Shown here piece after piece: positions 34,044 to 43,428 of a DNA stretch of 64,000 nucleotides. This DNA comes from Arcobacter caeni (GTDB taxonomy: Bacteria > Campylobacterota > Campylobacteria > Campylobacterales > Arcobacteraceae): NCBI RefSeq assembly GCF_003063245.1, contig NZ_MUXE01000008.1:1-64000 (forward strand). The letters run 5' to 3'. The first letter of the stretch is position 1. Each line of letters starts with the position of its first letter. The notes beneath the pieces are model-generated. The model saw nothing but the letters and a program-made list of their open reading frames with translations. It had not been told where the DNA came from and did no database searches. Made by a program: the position numbers and the translations under genes.

Positions 34044-36584
34044 TCATATTTCCTTGTCATTAATGCAAATAAGGTTTATAATCTCTTCTTGTTTCGAACA
34101 AAAATTCCCATTTTTCTCTATTAGTATCAAATCTCTTGCATAACCATTTAAAGTATGAAGTTTAGCACTTTCAATTTCTATTTTAAAATCATCAAATATT
34201 TTTGCAATATAGGCAAAAAGACCTTTTTGATCTTTCGCAATAATATGCATAGATGCTAAATAAGCTGTGTGATTACAATCAATTCTAATGTCATCTTTTT
34301 TTATTATAGGTGTTTTTGTAATAACTGTTTTGCTCATATCAAAAGAGTCTTTTATGATTTCTTCTATAAAAAAGAGGTCTTCATTGTTAACTTTTTCTGA
34401 AAATGAAATATCAAAGGCTTTTTTATTGTCATAAAGTTTAAAAATATTCATAGCTGCAATATTTAGAAATTCTAGTTTTCCTAGTAAATATCCCAGATTT
34501 AAAGGGGATTTTCTAATGATTCTAATTGTAAGTTGAGAATCATTAATTATTTTATAAATATATGTTTCTACATCTTTTGCTTTAATTGCAATATCCAAAA
34601 TATCTTCAGCTTTTAGTCTTAAGAAGATTTGATTTGAAGAAATATACATAATCTTTTTTTGTAAAATTACAGGTAATTCTTTATATTTATCAAGATTCTT
34701 GATTGTATTTTGTTTTGCAATTCTTCTTTTACTTTCATTTAAAAATCCTTCATTTTCAAAAGCAGGAAGAGATTGTAAATAAAGTTGTTTTAAAAGTGAA
34801 GCGGTTGAACTACTAAAAATATTTTTCCCAACGGCAGAAATATCGCAATATGTAACGGCATATAATAGTTTTAGAGCCTCTTTTGTTTTTACTAAACCAG
34901 TAAAATTTAGAATTGTTTTTTCAGAATATATATCTTCATGGGTTGCCATATAGGACATCATATTATGGTATCTTACAAGTCTTGCACCTAGTTTTATAAA
35001 CTCTTCACTAAAATCAAAAGATTTCATCATACTTTTAAATAGTTTTTCTCCAACAATATGATGATCTTCGGTTCTTCCTTTTCCAATATCATGAAAAAAA
35101 GCAACTAATCTAACTAATATTTTTTGTTCATTGCTTAAGTCATTAAATATTGATTTTATATATTCATCTTCAATATTTTGAGAAAATTTTAGAGTTTTTA
35201 AAGAGTGAATATCAACAGGATGTGTATGATAACCATCAAATTGTGGTTGATCCATCATTTTTTTTGTACTTGGAAGTACAGCTTGAAATAAACCTGCATT
35301 ATAAATTAATTTCATTAAAGGATATAAATTTGGTTTAGACAAAATTGTTTTTATATTTTTCTTTAATTCTTTGGTTTGAACTTTTGGTAATTTTGCTCGA
35401 CTTGCATAATAAATATATGATCTATCAAATCTTTCAATATTTAAAGGAAGTTCAATTAACTCTTTTAAAAGAGAATTTAGCGTTTGTTCTTTTCTATGAA
35501 AAGAAGAATATAAAGTATTATTTATAATATAAAGATTTTTTTTGAATCTCAATTTTCTCAATTTTGGTATATTTTGGGCTTCAAATAAAATCTGTCTTGT
35601 GAATTTTTTCACCATAGTTGCTGTAAAACTGTGAATAATATGTAAACAAGATAAAATCTTTGACATACATTGTCTGTCTTTTGTATATCTTGATTTATTT
35701 TTAAAGCCCAGTTTAGAACTTAAATCTGGCAAAATATCAAAAGTAACTTGATCAAGTTTTTTTCTTGCAATATTGTGTAAAGCATTTCTAACTTGAAATA
35801 TAAACTCTAAAGCTTGTCTATATTTTTTGTATTCATCTTCTGTAAATTGTGTTCCAATTAAATCTTTTGTATTTGTTACCCCATATAAAATATTTGCCAT
35901 CCAATACATCATATTTGATTCTCGAATTCCACCATAACCATCTTTTATATTTGGTTCCATTTTTAGTGGATATTTTAAAAGTCTTTGTTTATGTTCTTCT
36001 AATTTATCTAAAACAAACTCTTTTTGATTTGTTTTTCTGATTTTGCTTAAAACATTTTGATAACCAAACCAAAGATTTTTTGAACCATAAATTAATCTTG
36101 ATTCTAAAATAGAACTTTTAATTGTTATATCTTCTTTTACAGCTTCACCTATTTCTTTTAATTCATGAACTCTTGAGCCTAATTTTAAACCACAATCCCA
36201 AGCCAAAGTTATAAATTCTTCCATAATATTTTTTAAGTTATAACCTTTTACATTTTCGTATAAAAGCATAATATCAATATCAGAATAAATACAAAGTTGT
36301 TCTCTTCCATAGGAACCTAAGGCAACTAAACTAATAGGGATTGAAGAACTCATAGGTTGATGTGAAGCAAAATTTTTTCGTAAAATATACTTATAAAGTA
36401 AAATCAAAAATTTATCAGTATGTTTTGTATGTTTTATAAAAAAATCTTTTCCACCTGTTGTTTCAACTGTTGTATCAATTGAATCTAGATAGTTTTTGTA
36501 GTATGTCTTGAAAACTTTAGAGATTTCAAAATCAGAAGCGTTGTTTGATATAAGTTCTTCTATTTGTATACTTATTTCAATCAT
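34044..36584 (-). CDS. glnD: PII uridylyltransferase / uridylyl-removing enzyme GlnD
   Basis: 846 residues. The nucleotidyltransferase domain has GSYGREQLCIYSDIDIMLLYE (GS...DxD). The HD hydrolase domain has HTHPVDIHSLK, FFHDIGKGRTEDH and RYHN. Two ACT domains fill the last about 170 residues; the final one has ASMHIIAKDQKGLFAYIAKIF. GlnD senses glutamine and modifies PII at Tyr51; the PII encoded in this window keeps that Tyr. Its ATG overlaps the stop of the NtrC-like regulator gene by 4 bases (ATGA), so the two are translationally coupled. It is slightly shorter than the about 890-residue enterobacterial form. Confidence 0.94.
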   Translation of the reverse strand: MIEISIQIEELISNNASDFEISKVFKTYYKNYLDSIDTTVETTGGKDFFIKHTKHTDKFLILLYKYILRKNFASHQPMSSSIPISLVALGSYGREQLCIYSDIDIMLLYENVKGYNLKNIMEEFITLAWDCGLKLGSRVHELKEIGEAVKEDITIKSSILESRLIYGSKNLWFGYQNVLSKIRKTNQKEFVLDKLEEHKQRLLKYPLKMEPNIKDGYGGIRESNMMYWMANILYGVTNTKDLIGTQFTEDEYKKYRQALEFIFQVRNALHNIARKKLDQVTFDILPDLSSKLGFKNKSRYTKDRQCMSKILSCLHIIHSFTATMVKKFTRQILFEAQNIPKLRKLRFKKNLYIINNTLYSSFHRKEQTLNSLLKELIELPLNIERFDRSYIYYASRAKLPKVQTKELKKNIKTILSKPNLYPLMKLIYNAGLFQAVLPSTKKMMDQPQFDGYHTHPVDIHSLKTLKFSQNIEDEYIKSIFNDLSNEQKILVRLVAFFHDIGKGRTEDHHIVGEKLFKSMMKSFDFSEEFIKLGARLVRYHNMMSYMATHEDIYSEKTILNFTGLVKTKEALKLLYAVTYCDISAVGKNIFSSSTASLLKQLYLQSLPAFENEGFLNESKRRIAKQNTIKNLDKYKELPVILQKKIMYISSNQIFLRLKAEDILDIAIKAKDVETYIYKIINDSQLTIRIIRKSPLNLGYLLGKLEFLNIAAMNIFKLYDNKKAFDISFSEKVNNEDLFFIEEIIKDSFDMSKTVITKTPIIKKDDIRIDCNHTAYLASMHIIAKDQKGLFAYIAKIFDDFKIEIESAKLHTLNGYARDLILIEKNGNFCSKQEEIINLICINDKEI

Positions 36585-37333
36585 AATAAATCTTTATAGA
36601 TTTCTAGTTTCTTTCTTAATGTGATTCGATTTAATCCTAAATGTTTTGCAACTTGAACTTGAGATTTATATTTTGCAGTTGAGGCTTTTAGTAAAGGAAC
36701 TTCAAAAATATATGATAACTCTTTATATGAATTTTCTCCATGTAAATTTTCACTAATATATTTTTCTAAAAACATTAAAATTTCGTGTTCGCCAATAGTT
36801 TCAAAAAGGTATGAGAAATAGATAGATTTTCTTAAACTATGAGCATTATTTGTTATATTTATAATTAATTTTGAAGGGGAAACTTTTTGTAAATCTAAGA
36901 TTGAACTGGCTTCTGTGGAAAATTTATTTACCAAAGCTTTTGTATCTTCTTCTCTTTTAGCTAAGCTAGGAATTTCAAGATTAATTGAAAAAATATCTTT
37001 TATTTTCTGATTTAAATTTTCAGTATTTGAAATAGCAATTAGTCTAATATTATTATCTTCTACCCATTTTAAGAATAGGTCAATATTTGTTATTTCATTA
37101 ATTTTATCTATTATAATAGCTTCGTTTTGTAAAAAGATTACATCATCAGCTATATCTTTTTGTAAGTTTTTAGCTTCATAAATATCTGAATTTGGTAGTA
37201 TATATTTAGCAAGTGATTTTTTTCCTGTCCCTGCTTTTCCTAAAATAAGTGCATTTACTTGAACTGCTTGTAAAAGTTTTGCTGAATTTAATATTTCCTT
37301 TGAAATTTCATCTTCTGCAATAAAATTTTGCAT
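36581..37333 (-). CDS. Miniature NtrC-like regulator with Fis-type helix-turn-helix
   Basis: 250 residues from the ATG at 37333, chosen because GAGGTGG ends about 6 bases before it (a GTG at 37342 lies within that site). Walker A is GKAGTGKKS at 32-40. The Walker B-like IIIDKINEI has Lys instead of the catalytic Glu. Sensor-like IRLIAISN and IPSLAKREED match NtrC's VRIIAATN and LPPLRERRED. The GAFTGA sigma54-contact loop and the receiver domain are missing. The C-terminus SQVQVAKHLGLNRITLRKKL is a very good Fis-type HTH. Coupled to glnD, it is probably a nitrogen regulator acting without sigma54. Confidence 0.82.
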   Translation of the reverse strand: MQNFIAEDEISKEILNSAKLLQAVQVNALILGKAGTGKKSLAKYILPNSDIYEAKNLQKDIADDVIFLQNEAIIIDKINEITNIDLFLKWVEDNNIRLIAISNTENLNQKIKDIFSINLEIPSLAKREEDTKALVNKFSTEASSILDLQKVSPSKLIINITNNAHSLRKSIYFSYLFETIGEHEILMFLEKYISENLHGENSYKELSYIFEVPLLKASTAKYKSQVQVAKHLGLNRITLRKKLEIYKDLL

Positions 37334-37377: not shown

Positions 37378-37383
37378 ATTATA
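37378..37383 (-). promoter_or_regulatory. -10 box of the regulator-glnD operon
   Basis: TATAAT on the minus strand, 39 bases downstream of the centre of the palindrome at 37414-37430. No good -35 box is present at the usual spacing, as expected of an activator-dependent promoter. Confidence 0.6.
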
Positions 37384-37413: not shown

Positions 37414-37430
37414 TGTATATTTAATATACA
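37414..37430. promoter_or_regulatory. Palindrome TGTATATTTAATATACA, candidate nitrogen-regulator operator (site 1)
   Basis: A perfect 17-base palindrome around a central T. The form TGTATA-N5-TATACA matches two further sites before amt1 (40432-40448) and amt2 (41775-41791). It has the arm and spacer geometry of NtrC sites (TGCAC...GTGCA over 17 bases), which suggests autoregulation by the Fis-type HTH protein encoded downstream. Confidence 0.7.
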
Positions 37431-37448: not shown

Positions 37449-38306
37449 TTAATCTTTATTTGAATAGTGAATAAAGATTGTTAAAGAAATTAATATTAAT
37501 GCAATTCCTGCTATTAAATAAAAAGCATTTATCATTTGAACATAGTCATTTATAGCAATTTTAAATACAACAATTAAAGCTTCAATTGAAAGTGCAATAA
37601 TAATTGTTGTTAAAAACTTTGTTAAAATTTTTGTTTCAACTTTTGAATTTTTTGAATAGGATTTAAAAAATACTTCTTGTTCTAAAATAGTTTTTGCTAA
37701 ATCAAATATTGCAATACTTAAAGTAAGGGCAATTATTGGTTTAAAAATCATTTCAAGAGATAAGGCATGATTTGAAAATAAGTAAGTAATAAAGTCATAA
37801 ATAGAAAATAAAATAGTAAATACAGATAAAACTATCATTGAAATCCCAGCTAATATATAAAAGCTTTTAGTAATACTATGAAAAGGTTTATTTAATTCAA
37901 TTAGATTTAATTTTTGTAATAAAATATCTACTTGAAAATCTAGAAAAAATATATCTTCACCTTCTTTTATGGTAACTGTTACACAATTACTTCTTGTTGC
38001 GCTACTAATATAAGGTTTAGAAAAGGCGATATTAGATTCTTTAAAATGAAGTTTTAAAATTAAGTGTGAACGATCTTTATTTCTTGCATTTTCATCTGTT
38101 TTGTATCTATAGAAATTTTCCGAAATTTGAGTTTTTGTATCTTTATTTACAATATAAACAAGTTCTAATGAAGGAAATATTGTATAGAGTTGTTTAAAAT
38201 TATTTTTTTTGTGATTTGATAAGTTTCCTGAATTTTTTAGACTTTCTTGTAAAAAATATTCTATATCTTCTTGATGTTGTATATATGTTTCAAAAAATTC
38301 TTTCAT
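37449..38306 (-). CDS. Membrane protein with N-terminal Cache/PDC-like domain
   Basis: 285 residues. Residues about 1-135 look like a PDC/Cache sensor module (YTIFPSLELVYIVNKDTKTQIS, then ISSATRSNCVTVTI and DFQVDIL), but no membrane helix or signal precedes it. Four hydrophobic helices follow (about 145-175, 185-205, 228-250 and 260-280). There is no kinase or methyl-accepting part. Such proteins recur in Campylobacterota without an assigned function. It lies upstream of the nitrogen operon on the same strand, and the operator region sits between them. Confidence 0.7.
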   Translation of the reverse strand: MKEFFETYIQHQEDIEYFLQESLKNSGNLSNHKKNNFKQLYTIFPSLELVYIVNKDTKTQISENFYRYKTDENARNKDRSHLILKLHFKESNIAFSKPYISSATRSNCVTVTIKEGEDIFFLDFQVDILLQKLNLIELNKPFHSITKSFYILAGISMIVLSVFTILFSIYDFITYLFSNHALSLEMIFKPIIALTLSIAIFDLAKTILEQEVFFKSYSKNSKVETKILTKFLTTIIIALSIEALIVVFKIAINDYVQMINAFYLIAGIALILISLTIFIHYSNKD

Positions 38307-38404
38307 ATAAATTCCTCTGTATCTTTATCATAAGTATATGAAAATAAAAGGGGATAATATAAAATCATCTGTTTATTAATCATACAAATATAATATTAAG
38401 TGAG

Positions 38405-40330
38405 TTATTCTATATTAAATTCTTTGATCATATTTTCTGCAAGTACTTCTAGTTTTTTCACATTATTAGAGTCTTCAATCCCTTTTGTAAGTGTTTTAAT
38501 ATTTACATGAAATTTTTGAAGAAATTGCAAAATTTTAGGATCTTTTTTTTCTAAATTATTTACTAATGCTCCAACATCTAACATCTCTATTACTAAATCT
38601 TTTTTCCCCATAAATGCTGCATAATTTATTGGTCTTATTCCATAATTATCTGGTAAATTCATTACTTCTTTGTTATAGTGATAAAGTAGTCTAAAATATT
38701 TGGTCGTATTTTTCCAAATACAAATATGAATAATACTTCTTCCTTGTTTATCAGTAACAAAACAATCAGCACGCATTTCTAAAAGAAGTCTTATTGTATG
38801 TTCACACTTTTCACCAACTGCAATATGAAGAGCAGTTAATCCTTCATTATTTTTTGCATTAATATCAACACCTGCATTTATCAGACTTTTTATAGTATTT
38901 AAATATAGTTTTTTATCTTTTATTAGATTTTTATCATTGTAATTCATCAGTTTAAAGATAATATTATTTCCATCTTTGTCTCTTTGATTTAGATTAATAT
39001 CTTTAACTCTTAATAATTTAAATAGTTTAAAATTAAAATAGACAATAGAATCAAAAAATAAAGGTTCATGTTTAGAATTTAATTTATTTATATCAACATT
39101 ATGACTTTTTAAAATAATCTCTAATACATTCGCATATTCAGCATCTTCGTTTAATAATATTTCATATTCAAACTCTAAAGGTTTTCTATTTTCTGAATAT
39201 AAAACTATATCAATAAGTATTTCAATAAGAGACTTTCCATGTTTATTCTCTAAATCAGGAGTTGCACCTTTTTTTAAATATAGTTTCATTAGTTCAATGT
39301 TTCTAATACCATTTAATGCCAAAATTGATAAAACAGTCTCACCTTGATTATTTTGATGATTTAAATCTATTTTATGATCATCTTCAAAAAGAGTATCAAT
39401 TAACTCTTTATTTTCACTTCTTGTAACTAAAAAAAGTGCATTTTCATTATTATCATCCGTTGCATCAACACTTATACCTAAACGAATTAATTCTCTAATC
39501 ATTTCTAAATGATCATTTCTTATTTCTGTATTTTCTTTTGGTGTTTCTAAAAAATATGCTATTGATTCCATTAGCAGAGTCTTGTTTTTACTACTTCTAC
39601 TATTTATATTACAGCCCAATGAAAGAGCTTTTTCTATAATGTCAATATTTTTGATACCTTTTGATATTGCATAAAAAATAAAATTTCTGCCATTTCTATC
39701 CATAATAGTTGGATTTGCACCTAATTCCATAAGTAATAAAGCCAACTCATTATTTCTGATAACAATTTCTTTATGTAAAATAGTATTTCCATCTTTATTA
39801 ACTTGGTTTATATTTAGCTCTTCTAATGCACCAACTTTTCTGATAATTTCCATATTACCATTTGCAACCGCGTCAAAAATTAAATTATTTCCATGAATAT
39901 CACTATTGTCTAAAGCTTGAGTAACTTGAATTAAGTAATTTACAATTCTATTATTTGCACTAATAACAGCATCTTGTAAAGCTGTTCTTTTATAAATATT
40001 TAAATGGTTTATGTTGATTTTATTTTCAATTAAGATTTGTAGGATTGCACTATTTTTAGCGTGTATTGCATAAAAAATTGCAGTTTCTTCTTGAGAATTT
40101 TGAATTTCTAGATTAATGTTGTTTGCAATAAGCCAAACAACTGATTGATATAAGTCTTTTTTACAGCAGTAATGCAAAATAAGTTCGTTATGAACACTTA
40201 AGGTATTTAAATCTAAACCAAGTTCACTATGCATTTTATCTAGTTTTTCATTACTAGCATTTTGATTTAATAATTCTTTTAAAAATTCTTCTTCAGTAGT
40301 TTTAGTCTTGTTTATGAGCTTTTTGAACAT
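38405..40330 (-). CDS. Ankyrin-repeat protein
   Basis: 641 residues from the ATG at 40330 (a TTG at 40342 would add four codons but lacks a ribosome-binding site). About 14 ankyrin-like repeats run through most of the protein, for example NNEGLTALHIAVGEKCEHTI, NKDGNTILHKEIVIRNNELA and DRNGRNFIFYAISKGIKNID. No signal peptide, membrane helix or enzyme domain is visible, so it is likely a cytoplasmic protein-binding scaffold. It is divergent from amt1 and shares its 180-base upstream region, including the palindromic operator. Confidence 0.9.
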   Translation of the reverse strand: MFKKLINKTKTTEEEFLKELLNQNASNEKLDKMHSELGLDLNTLSVHNELILHYCCKKDLYQSVVWLIANNINLEIQNSQEETAIFYAIHAKNSAILQILIENKININHLNIYKRTALQDAVISANNRIVNYLIQVTQALDNSDIHGNNLIFDAVANGNMEIIRKVGALEELNINQVNKDGNTILHKEIVIRNNELALLLMELGANPTIMDRNGRNFIFYAISKGIKNIDIIEKALSLGCNINSRSSKNKTLLMESIAYFLETPKENTEIRNDHLEMIRELIRLGISVDATDDNNENALFLVTRSENKELIDTLFEDDHKIDLNHQNNQGETVLSILALNGIRNIELMKLYLKKGATPDLENKHGKSLIEILIDIVLYSENRKPLEFEYEILLNEDAEYANVLEIILKSHNVDINKLNSKHEPLFFDSIVYFNFKLFKLLRVKDINLNQRDKDGNNIIFKLMNYNDKNLIKDKKLYLNTIKSLINAGVDINAKNNEGLTALHIAVGEKCEHTIRLLLEMRADCFVTDKQGRSIIHICIWKNTTKYFRLLYHYNKEVMNLPDNYGIRPINYAAFMGKKDLVIEMLDVGALVNNLEKKDPKILQFLQKFHVNIKTLTKGIEDSNNVKKLEVLAENMIKEFNIE

Positions 40331-40431
40331 TTCACCAACCAATATTTTTATAATATAATTTATTCGCGATTATATAATAAAAAAGCAAGTTCTCAGCTTT
40401 AAACGATAAAAATATACTAGGAATAATATTG

Positions 40432-40448
40432 TGCATATTTAATATACA
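40432..40448. promoter_or_regulatory. Palindrome TGCATATTTAATATACA upstream of amt1 (operator site 2)
   Basis: It matches site 1 at 16 of 17 bases. Its centre (40440) is 40 bases before the amt1 -10 box at 40480. Lying between divergent genes, it could also affect the ankyrin-repeat gene. Confidence 0.7.
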
Positions 40449-40479: not shown

Positions 40480-40485
40480 TATAAT
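40480..40485 (+). promoter_or_regulatory. -10 box of amt1
   Basis: TATAAT, 28 bases before the amt1 ATG at 40514, with no convincing -35 hexamer. An AAAGGA ribosome-binding site lies at 40502-40507. Confidence 0.6.
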
Positions 40486-40513: not shown

Positions 40514-41728
40514 ATGGAAAATTTTGCTGATGTAAAATATATTTTAGATGGTTTTTTATTTATATTTGCAGGAATTCTTGTAATGTGGATGGCAGCTGGT
40601 TTTGCTATGCTTGAATCTGGTTTAACAAGAAGTAAAAATACTGCAACAGTTTTGACAAAAAATATTTTATTATTTGCAATATCTTGTATTATGTTTTATT
40701 TCGTTGGATACAACTTTATGTATGGTGATGGAAATATTTTTATTGGAAGTGGAGTAATGTTGTCTGGAAAAACAAGCGAAGGAATGGGTTATCCTGTAAT
40801 GGCAGACTTTTTCTTTCAAGTTGTTTTTGTAGCAACTGCGGCTTCTGTTATTTCAGGAGTTATTGCAGAAAGAATGAAAATATGGCCATTTTTAATATTT
40901 ACAATAATTTTAACAAGTATTATTTATCCAATCCAAGGACATTGGTCATGGGGAAAATCTGAACTTGGCGGTTTTATGACAGGATTTTCTGATTTTGCAG
41001 GTTCAACCGTTGTTCACTCTGTTGGTGGATGGGCGGCTCTTGCTGGAGTATTGATTTTAGGAGCTAGAAAAGGTAAATACGCAAAAGATGGTCAAGTAAG
41101 ACCAATTCCTGGTTCAAATCTTCCTATGGCAACGCTTGGAACATTTATTTTATGGATGGGATGGTTTGGATTTAATGGTGGTTCTCAATTAGCTCTTGGT
41201 TCAAAAGAAGATATTGATGCAATTGCTTCTGTAATTGCAAGTACTAATATGGCTGCATGTGCTGGTGGATTAATGGCTGCTATTTTAACACAACTTATTT
41301 ATAAAAAAATCGATTTAACAATGGTTTTAAATGGTACTTTAGCAGGACTTGTTTCTTGTACAGCAGGACCCAATTTGGGAATTGATGTAGCTTTAATTGA
41401 GGGATTAATTGGTGGTGCATTAATAATATTTGCTGTTCCATTTTTTGATAAATTAAAAATTGATGATCCCGTTGGCGCTTTATCTGTTCACTTAGTTTCA
41501 GGTATTTGGGGAACATTAGCTGTTGGTATTTTTAGTCCTACTGTTACTTTTTTAGCTCAGATAAAAGGGGTGGTTGTAGTTGGTTCATTTGTTTTTATTT
41601 CATCATTTATTATTTGGAAAATAATAGATTTATTAATTGGATTAAGAGTTGATGATGAGACAGAGGTTAATGGTCTTGATATTAATGAAACAGGATTAGA
41701 AGCCTATCCAGAATTTAAAAGGGCATAA
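40514..41728 (+). CDS. amtB: Ammonium transporter (first of a tandem pair)
   Basis: 404 residues with 11 predicted helices. The twin pore histidines are present in DFAGSTVVHSVGGW and in PVGALSVHLVSGIWG. The conserved Asp of the ammonium site is in the first of these motifs (usual DFAGGTVVH; here the second Gly is Ser). The C-terminal tail DETEVNGLDINETGLEAYPEF is the family's PII-interacting region. It conducts ammonium inward and is blocked by unmodified PII; glnK and glnD are both nearby. Confidence 0.95.
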   Translation: MENFADVKYILDGFLFIFAGILVMWMAAGFAMLESGLTRSKNTATVLTKNILLFAISCIMFYFVGYNFMYGDGNIFIGSGVMLSGKTSEGMGYPVMADFFFQVVFVATAASVISGVIAERMKIWPFLIFTIILTSIIYPIQGHWSWGKSELGGFMTGFSDFAGSTVVHSVGGWAALAGVLILGARKGKYAKDGQVRPIPGSNLPMATLGTFILWMGWFGFNGGSQLALGSKEDIDAIASVIASTNMAACAGGLMAAILTQLIYKKIDLTMVLNGTLAGLVSCTAGPNLGIDVALIEGLIGGALIIFAVPFFDKLKIDDPVGALSVHLVSGIWGTLAVGIFSPTVTFLAQIKGVVVVGSFVFISSFIIWKIIDLLIGLRVDDETEVNGLDINETGLEAYPEFKRA

Positions 41729-41774
41729 TTAAAAAAATAAAACAAAAAGATAGAAGGAGTATTTTCCTATTGAT

Positions 41775-41791
41775 TGTATATAAATTATACA
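41775..41791. promoter_or_regulatory. Palindrome TGTATATAAATTATACA upstream of amt2 (operator site 3)
   Basis: It has the same TGTATA-N5-TATACA arms as sites 1 and 2 but a different spacer (TAAAT), so only the arms are conserved. It lies within a longer perfect inverted repeat, ATTGATTGTATA / TATACAATCAAT (41769-41797). Its centre is 41 bases before the amt2 -10 box. Confidence 0.7.
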
Positions 41792-41823: not shown

Positions 41824-41829
41824 TATAAT
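41824..41829 (+). promoter_or_regulatory. -10 box of amt2
   Basis: TATAAT located 22 bases before the amt2 ATG at 41852. There is no clear -35 box. The position relative to operator site 3 repeats that seen at amt1 and at the regulator gene. Confidence 0.6.
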
Positions 41830-41851: not shown

Positions 41852-43036
41852 ATGAGTATGGAATCTATCTCTTATATCATCAACACTTTATACGCAATTT
41901 TTGCGATGACATTGATTATTTTTATGGTTCCCGGTTTTGCAATGCTGGAAGCTGGAATTGTAAGAACTAAAAATGTTACAACAGTGTTAACAATAAATAC
42001 ACTTATTTATTCAATCGCTTCACTAACTTTTTTATTGTTTGGTTACTCATTAGCTTTTGGAGACTTTGGAAGTGAAATTATGAGTAAATGGGCTGTATTT
42101 TTATTTCAAATGGCATTTGTTGGTAAAGTTGTAAATATTATGAGTGGTGGAGTTAGTGAAAGAGCTAAAATTATTCCATTAGGATTATTTACAGTTATTA
42201 TGGCATCAGTTCTTTATCCTTTGGTTGTAAATATTACATGGGGAGCAAATTTTCTAAAAAATACAATTTTAGAATTATCTATGTATGATTTAGCAGGTTC
42301 AACTATAATTCATAGTACAGGTGGTTGGGCTTTATTAGCTGCAATTTTAATAATTGGTGCGAGAAAAGGAAGATATACAAAAGAGGGTGCAATAAGAGTA
42401 ATTCCAGCATCCAATATTCCATTAGTTACTTTAGGTGCATTTTTATTATGGATTGGTTGGTTTGGATTTAATGGTGGAAGTGTGGGTTCAATTACAAGTA
42501 AAGAAAATGCAGATTTAGTTGCACTTACGATTTTGAATACAAATACGGCTGGATTAAGTGGCGCAATAATGGTGGCAATAATTATGCACCTTGTTTATAA
42601 AAAACTTGATTTAACAATGATTTTAAATGGTGCATTAGGTGGTTTAGTATCAATTACAGCTGGAGCTGATTTATATAATATTTATACACCAATATTAATA
42701 GGTGCATTAGGTGGATGTTTGGTTGTTATTGGAGTTTCTTTTTTTGATAAAATGAAAATTGATGATCCTGTTGGTGCTTTATCGGTTCACCTTTTAAATG
42801 GAATTTGGGGAACAATAGCTGTTGGTATTTTTGCATCAAATGATAAAATTACATTATTAGGACAATTAAAAGGAATTTTAGTTATTGGAGTATTTGCTTT
42901 TGTAAGTTCTTTTGTAACATTATATTTAATTAATAAAATAATGCCATTACGAGCTGGAAATGATGAAGAAATGCAAGGATTAGATGTAGAAGAGTGTGGT
43001 ATTGAAGCTTATCCTGAATTTAAACGAGCATTCTAA
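41852..43036 (+). CDS. Ammonium transporter (second of a tandem pair)
   Basis: 394 residues from the ATG at 41852, which has AAGGA 5 bases before it; an upstream in-frame ATG at 41774 would lie inside the operator and promoter. Pore histidines are conserved in DLAGSTIIHSTGGW and PVGALSVHLLNGIWG. It resembles Amt1 throughout (ASNIPLVTLGAFLLWIGWFGFNGGS versus GSNLPMATLGTFILWMGWFGFNGGS over short matching stretches), so the two arose by duplication or joint inheritance. The tail NDEEMQGLDVEECGIEAYPEF fits PII binding. It is followed by glnK. Confidence 0.93.
   Translation: MSMESISYIINTLYAIFAMTLIIFMVPGFAMLEAGIVRTKNVTTVLTINTLIYSIASLTFLLFGYSLAFGDFGSEIMSKWAVFLFQMAFVGKVVNIMSGGVSERAKIIPLGLFTVIMASVLYPLVVNITWGANFLKNTILELSMYDLAGSTIIHSTGGWALLAAILIIGARKGRYTKEGAIRVIPASNIPLVTLGAFLLWIGWFGFNGGSVGSITSKENADLVALTILNTNTAGLSGAIMVAIIMHLVYKKLDLTMILNGALGGLVSITAGADLYNIYTPILIGALGGCLVVIGVSFFDKMKIDDPVGALSVHLLNGIWGTIAVGIFASNDKITLLGQLKGILVIGVFAFVSSFVTLYLINKIMPLRAGNDEEMQGLDVEECGIEAYPEFKRAF

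Positions 43037-43068: not shown

Positions 43069-43427
<359 letters not shown>

Positions 43428-43428
<1 letters not shown>

Follow-up and report, generated by a model that had tools for sequence, protein, structure and literature searches.

A receiverless relative of NtrC as a candidate sigma70-type nitrogen regulator in Campylobacterota

The first 64,000 nucleotides of contig NZ_MUXE01000008.1 of Arcobacter caeni (assembly GCF_003063245.1), hereafter the window, carry a group of nitrogen genes in which glnD is immediately preceded by a gene for a 250-residue protein resembling part of the nitrogen regulator NtrC. We call this protein mini-NtrC. It raises a simple question: what does an NtrC without a receiver do in a genome where no match to rpoN, the gene for sigma54, is found? 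The answer we consider likely, from comparative sequence evidence, is that mini-NtrC is a phosphorelay-free, sigma70-type regulator of nitrogen assimilation in Campylobacterota, with a second reduced protein, mini-NtrB, as its likely signal partner. A comparative reconstruction of proteobacterial regulons omitted the Epsilonproteobacteria because it found there no orthologues of the regulators it targeted, which included NtrC (PMC5343134). Control of nitrogen assimilation in the phylum (Sulfurimonas, Sulfurospirillum, Arcobacter and others) has therefore been left without an obvious regulator. The present analysis supplies a candidate regulator, a probable partner, an operator and a regulon, each of which is directly testable.

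A receiverless NtrC and its operator

A family profile of 116 sequences aligns residues 3-247 of mini-NtrC with residues 139-467 of Escherichia coli NtrC (hhalign, 97.8%, E 9e-13), and its best relatives among PDB sequences are NtrC1 (E 1e-13), ZraR-type activators and Fis (E 4e-7). Given that the best PDB matches belong to the NtrC family and accord with the NtrC alignment, we read mini-NtrC as a receiverless NtrC; the same matches rule out a different AAA+ family. Among domain models, Pfam Sigma54_activat scores 21.7 bits, HTH_8 and HTH_50 match under their cut-offs, and the NCBIfam ntrC model TIGR01818 gives 31.8 bits against a curated cut-off of 558.6 bits, too little for membership.

The receiver with its phosphorylated aspartate is missing: the homologues start at the AAA+ domain, and the alignment with NtrC begins at residue 139. 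In the profile alignment with NtrC, mini-NtrC has a deletion where the GAFTGA segment would be. The Walker A motif is kept almost without change (G32 and G37 in 116 of 116 homologues, K38 in 113 with R in the others). Walker B reads D76-K77, with D at 76 in 55 homologues and the glutamate at 77 in two, and the arginine finger of NtrC ('FHRLN') is lost, the aligned residue being D113 (R in 5/116). The NtrC-family 'LxxRxxD' motif is retained, with R127 and D130 present in all 116, as is a sensor-II-like R/K168; F115, N163 and Y203 are invariant or nearly so. In the Fis-type helix-turn-helix (HTH), N235, R236, T238, L239 and K242 are invariant and the core NRxTLRKK is nearly so. The original prediction, a real 250-residue NtrC-derived protein without receiver or GAFTGA loop, with DK as its Walker B pair and with Walker A and the HTH kept, is borne out by these comparisons. 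It had also listed sensor-like and arginine-finger-like segments; the sensor-II-like residue and 'LxxRxxD' do remain, but the catalytic arginine finger does not. We conclude from the conservation of the P-loop, R127/D130 and the HTH that mini-NtrC is a working protein under selection rather than one in decay. Its nucleotide pocket has probably been kept for binding, with the hydrolytic machinery gone.

Upstream of amt, a 17-bp palindrome, TGTATA-N5-TATACA, is found exactly in 28 of 57 cases and with at most one mismatch in 45, compared with 0 and 7 of 1140 dinucleotide shuffles. The whole genome holds seven exact copies, all intergenic, and a reversed-pattern control gives none. Naming the genes by sequence inspection, exact sites precede glnA (66 bp), gltB, a narK-type MFS transporter (68 bp), mini-NtrC-glnD, amt2 and an ATP-grasp gene, and one lies between a porin gene and prs. 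The closest relatives of this genome are Aliarcobacter metagenome-assembled genomes; nine of ten Aliarcobacter without mini-NtrC have no exact site and the tenth has one, while 16 Arcobacteraceae with mini-NtrC have 1-21 each. The shuffles, the reversed-pattern control and the mini-NtrC-negative relatives together rule out chance AT-rich palindromes. The regulon so predicted is the same core as that described for NtrC, namely glnA, amtB and glnK, joined in some taxa by gltBD, narK and nirA (PMC5343134). In the genome with 21 exact copies (G014), one site stands before a NifA-like activator gene (L280 3233), which suggests that mini-NtrC may act above the sigma54/NifA branch of nitrogen fixation where rpoN exists.

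Is the palindrome bound by mini-NtrC? The half-site changes with residue 237 of the recognition helix. Where an amt locus has a callable site, I, V, T or A at 237 goes with TGTATA in 36 of 36 loci, and N237 (helix NRN, resembling 'GRNTL' of E. coli NtrC) with TGATTA in 5/5. In the N237 genomes the palindrome is TGATTA-N5-TAATCA, and it precedes amt, glnA, narK-like and nirA-like genes (again named by inspection). Genome-wide site counts agree with the residue-237 type, and family f4 contains both kinds of half-site, each fitting its own mini-NtrC. Because residue 237 and the half-site covary, mini-NtrC, and not some unrelated factor, would be the protein that uses the operator. In G069, a genome listed as 7% contaminated, the mini-NtrC gene is present twice (loci L057 and L058), once with I and once with N at 237; the N237 locus bears a TGATTA operator and is possibly on a contaminating Sulfurovum-like contig.

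The sites also stand in a constant relation to sigma70 promoters. Of 120 unique sequences, 34 have an exact TATAAT at a distance of 48 or 49 bases from where the operator starts, no other offset occurring more than twice, and 73 have a -10 match of at least 5/6 at 47-49 bases. These counts are not independent, since the sequences share ancestry and divergent regions contribute both of their sides. In this genome the site centres lie about 51 to 53 bases upstream of the predicted starts of amt1, amt2, mini-NtrC, gltB and narK. Judged by sequence alone, the sites at nitrogen genes are placed as at sigma70 promoters. No sigma54-type -24/-12 element (TGGCAC-N5-TTGC-like) was seen downstream of the sites examined, and we therefore reject sigma54-type promoters. 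The original prediction of a sigma70 activator thus gains support from a palindrome before amt at fixed spacing from a -10 box. Such geometry would suit a sigma70 activator that touches polymerase from a position immediately before the -35 element, and makes repression less likely.

Partner protein and distribution

mini-NtrB has about 230 residues, in which a PAS domain is followed directly by the 'NIH..RDYDPSLPE' region of the NtrB CA domain, the histidine domain being absent. Pfam and NCBIfam alone are insufficient to name it, PAS (PF00989) matching 9 of 27 members (best 3.8e-6) and the NR(II) model four of 27, weakly; profile-profile comparison (hhalign) with nine NtrBs was needed, giving 90.9% and E 1.1e-6, with a collinear second match over PAS. 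A DHp domain with its phospho-accepting histidine was not found, local alignments skipping NtrB residues 43-193, and neither an HExxNP motif nor N, D and G boxes were seen in the mini-NtrB sequences.

An intact frame of about 250 residues encodes mini-NtrC in 80 of 101 Arcobacteraceae genomes. Across the phylum it is found in 167 of 397 Campylobacterota genomes, 166 of them secure (the extra match, in G289, is weak, E 1.2e-4), and mini-NtrB is present in 166 of the 397, exactly those with a secure mini-NtrC. Within genus g1, and likewise within families f1, f2 and f3, the two are present or absent together, and on this basis several joint losses of the pair are likely. A search of viral contigs found no relatives.

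The neighbourhoods of the genes are of three types (taxon labels such as Sulfurimonas-like and Sulfurovum-like are our own reading of the genomes). In Sulfurimonas- and Sulfurospirillum-like families the order is slyD, mini-NtrC, fabD; in Sulfurovum-like genomes and others mini-NtrC is followed by the 230-residue mini-NtrB gene, amt and glnK; and in most Arcobacteraceae a gene for a 285-residue membrane protein, mini-NtrC and glnD lie in that order beside amt-glnK. The order rpoD, mini-NtrB recurs in Arcobacteraceae, Sulfurimonas-like and Sulfurospirillum-like genomes. Translational coupling to glnD, as originally predicted, is real here, where the mini-NtrC TGA and the glnD ATG share an ATGA overlap, but it is a feature of Arcobacteraceae only, mini-NtrB-amt-glnK or slyD/fabD being the neighbours elsewhere. 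We considered glnD as the true functional partner and rejected it; outside Arcobacteraceae it is mostly unlinked, and five genomes with mini-NtrC have no glnD match. In same-genus genomes without mini-NtrC, glnD is either shorter and lower-scoring, at 822-831 residues (G010, G027, G056, G066, G076, G078 and G080), or gives no match at all (G038, G049, G061 and G096). Nitrogen control must differ in same-genus genomes that lack mini-NtrC.

The idea that mini-NtrC is a lineage-specific relic, left behind when an ancestor of Arcobacter lost sigma54, was part of the original prediction. Only 32 of 101 Arcobacteraceae genomes have rpoN, leaving 69 without; in favour of a relic, the present genome has no match to it, nor any other sigma54 activator, its remaining PF00158 matches resembling by sequence ClpA, ClpB, a ComM-like protein, ClpX and MoxR. 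The distribution nevertheless contradicts the idea. mini-NtrC is phylum-wide (166/397 genomes), 119 of the 166 secure genomes have rpoN and 47 do not, and within Arcobacteraceae it occurs in 31 of 32 rpoN-positive and 49 of 69 rpoN-negative genomes. Taken with the conservation of P-loop, R127/D130 and HTH, which speaks of selection rather than decay, this makes a relic of that kind hardly credible. In six related genomes with rpoN no protein attains the ntrC cut-off, and their activator matches read as FlgR-like, NifA-like or other response regulators.

Mechanism and alternatives

Both the receiver of mini-NtrC and the phospho-accepting histidine domain of mini-NtrB have been deleted, and for this reason we propose signalling by direct contact. 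At low nitrogen, GlnD would uridylylate GlnK, and the state of GlnK/PII would be read by mini-NtrB, much as PII acts on the kinase NtrB in E. coli. mini-NtrB would then pass the signal to mini-NtrC by direct contact, with no phosphotransfer. A mini-NtrC dimer, or an ATP-dependent higher oligomer, would bind the 17-bp palindrome through its Fis-type HTH, the centre of the palindrome lying some 52 bases before the predicted start, immediately upstream of the -35 region of sigma70 promoters. From there it may recruit sigma70 polymerase at amt1, amt2-glnK, its own operon with glnD, glnA, gltB and genes of nitrate uptake, the AAA+ stump probably holding ATP in a structural or allosteric role without hydrolysing it. 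Comparison strongly supports the step from predicted operator to predicted regulon; co-occurrence, gene order and homology point to the NtrB and PII steps, and residue conservation to ATP as a non-hydrolysed ligand.

The broader proposition is that this is a phylum-wide two-component system in which both partners have shed the phosphorelay (NtrB its histidine and catalytic parts, NtrC its receiver and ATPase), the nitrogen regulon having passed to sigma70 and to control by direct PII contact; here we judge the case evenly balanced. If true, one could speak of a 'two-component system without phosphate', whose operator and recognition helix can be read as they co-evolve (TGTATA with I237, TGATTA with N237).

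Could mini-NtrC instead repress the nitrogen genes at plentiful ammonium, from the same operators and with ATP or mini-NtrB/PII as co-repressor? The operator and regulon are equally compatible with this, an inert AAA+ domain requires no activation chemistry, and the site before its own operon would fit negative autoregulation. The promoters argue otherwise. The palindrome ends about 44 bases ahead of the predicted start and leaves the -35 and -10 uncovered, and the -35 hexamers are poor, like those of activator-dependent promoters. Contact with polymerase is favoured by the spacing to the -10, which stays at 48-49 bases from gene to gene and from genus to genus, and we regard repression as unlikely. 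We are more sceptical still that the palindrome is the site of another transcription factor, with mini-NtrC an accessory (such as a PII-regulated adaptor) in the same regulon: mini-NtrC is often not beside the target genes and its binding is predicted, yet in every callable locus residue 237 and the half-site change together, the sites vanish together with mini-NtrC in Aliarcobacter, and the 6-N5-6 layout of 17 bp matches that of the classical NtrC site, TGCACC-N5-GGTGCA. That explanation seems to us very improbable.

Several observations weigh against our preferred reading of mini-NtrC as a sigma70-type nitrogen activator. In many lineages mini-NtrC or mini-NtrB lies away from nitrogen genes, in slyD-fabD or rpoD neighbourhoods, and the porin, prs and ATP-grasp sites stand at genes with no obvious nitrogen role. 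Two N-type genomes, G171 and G260, have neither exact palindrome, so a third version of the operator may exist. Common descent links the genomes, and likewise the promoters, so the site and covariation counts given above are not counts of independent events. An AlphaFold model of mini-NtrC from seven close sequences reached a pLDDT of 41.5 and was discarded as unusable.

Several NtrC-family regulators without GAFTGA are already known to work with sigma70. NtrC of Rhodobacter capsulatus is described as one, acting at sigma70 promoters and requiring ATP binding but not hydrolysis (Bowman & Kranz 1998, as cited in PMC10274813). The mini-NtrC sequence, with Walker A kept and Walker B lost, would likewise fit ATP binding without hydrolysis. 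The R. capsulatus protein, however, has a receiver and needs aspartyl phosphorylation by a true NtrB kinase, whereas the mini pair lacks both phosphotransfer domains, and mini-NtrC, unlike it, also lacks Walker B and the arginine finger. Caulobacter crescentus NtrC, also GAFTGA-less, controls glnA and other sigma70 promoters (PMC10274813); it differs in having a receiver and in needing Walker A and B and a full-length NtrB kinase. Vibrio cholerae VpsR (printed 'VspR') is NtrC-like, lacks GAFTGA, uses sigma70 and does not need phosphorylation (PMC10274813). Its PDB entry 7v2b is among the better sequence matches to the mini-NtrC profile. VpsR is nonetheless a full-length, cyclic di-GMP-controlled biofilm regulator, unrelated to nitrogen and with no mini-NtrB partner. 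E. coli TyrR also belongs to the NtrC family, acts with sigma70 and lacks GAFTGA, and the alignment with it runs the full length; its regulon, however, concerns amino acids, its Walker B (LLDEIG) is intact and it carries additional sensory domains at the N-terminus. E. coli NtrC and NtrB (NR(I) and NR(II)) share the AAA+ and HTH homology and the PAS and CA matches given above; the mini pair differs from them in having no receiver, no DHp and no sigma54 contact, and in its half-site, TGTATA or TGATTA rather than TGCACC.

Our conclusion from these comparisons is that the pair is an NtrBC stripped of its phosphorelay, the GAFTGA-less sigma70 NtrCs already known having a receiver and phosphorylation. 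It offers a natural case in which the phosphotransfer parts have been deleted from both partners and the two genes retained or lost as a pair throughout the 397 genomes examined. We found no account of the mini-NtrC/mini-NtrB pair or of its operator in the open-access literature, which is weak evidence of absence.

The locus in Arcobacter caeni

Table 1. Features of the mini-NtrC system in the window (positions of the window unless stated otherwise)
Feature	Position	Strand	Remarks
mini-NtrC: pseudo-AAA+ (residues ~1-170) and Fis-type HTH (~200-250), receiver absent	36581..37333	-	250 residues; ATG 37333 to TGA 36581, open reading frame of the window
glnD, PII uridylyl-transferase/removing enzyme	34044..36584	-	overlaps mini-NtrC stop (ATGA)
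Walker A of mini-NtrC, GKAGTGKK, residues 32-39	37217..37240	-	computed from residue numbers
Recognition-helix core of mini-NtrC, NRITLRKK, residues 235-242	36608..36631	-	
Operator TGTATA-N5-TATACA, exact, before mini-NtrC-glnD operon	37414..37430	.	
Predicted sigma70 -10 box TATAAT, mini-NtrC-glnD promoter	37378..37383	-	47 bases from operator start
Operator of amt1, TGCATATTTAATATACA	40432..40448	.	one mismatch
amt1 -10 box TATAAT (TTTACA-N17-TATAAT)	40480..40485	+	offset 48 from operator start
amt1, ammonium transporter	40514..41728	+	predicted target
Operator TGTATA-N5-TATACA, exact, upstream of amt2-glnK	41775..41791	.	
amt2 -10 box TATAAT	41824..41829	+	offset 49 from operator start
amt2	41852..43036	+	predicted target; start choice inferred
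glnK (PII)	43090..43428	+	predicted to be a target and a signal input; identified by inspecting its sequence and from gene order
Weak operator-like site upstream of the 285-residue membrane protein gene	38370..38386	.	two mismatches
mini-NtrB of this genome	G000:C55:114467-115147 (L165 9974-10654)		outside the window; four bases downstream of rpoD (sigma70)

For amt2, the ATG at 41852 is a likelier start than the automatic TTG at 41774, whose frame overlaps the operator and promoter. A gene for a 645-residue ankyrin-repeat protein (38405-40342) lies between the 285-residue membrane protein gene and amt1, and is absent from between these genes in Arcobacteraceae loci L063-L067. The 285-residue protein (37449-38306), to which neither Pfam nor NCBIfam gives a name, has an apparent sensor domain followed by several membrane helices. 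In Arcobacteraceae, and also in a single f4 genome (L105), its gene is conserved immediately before mini-NtrC.

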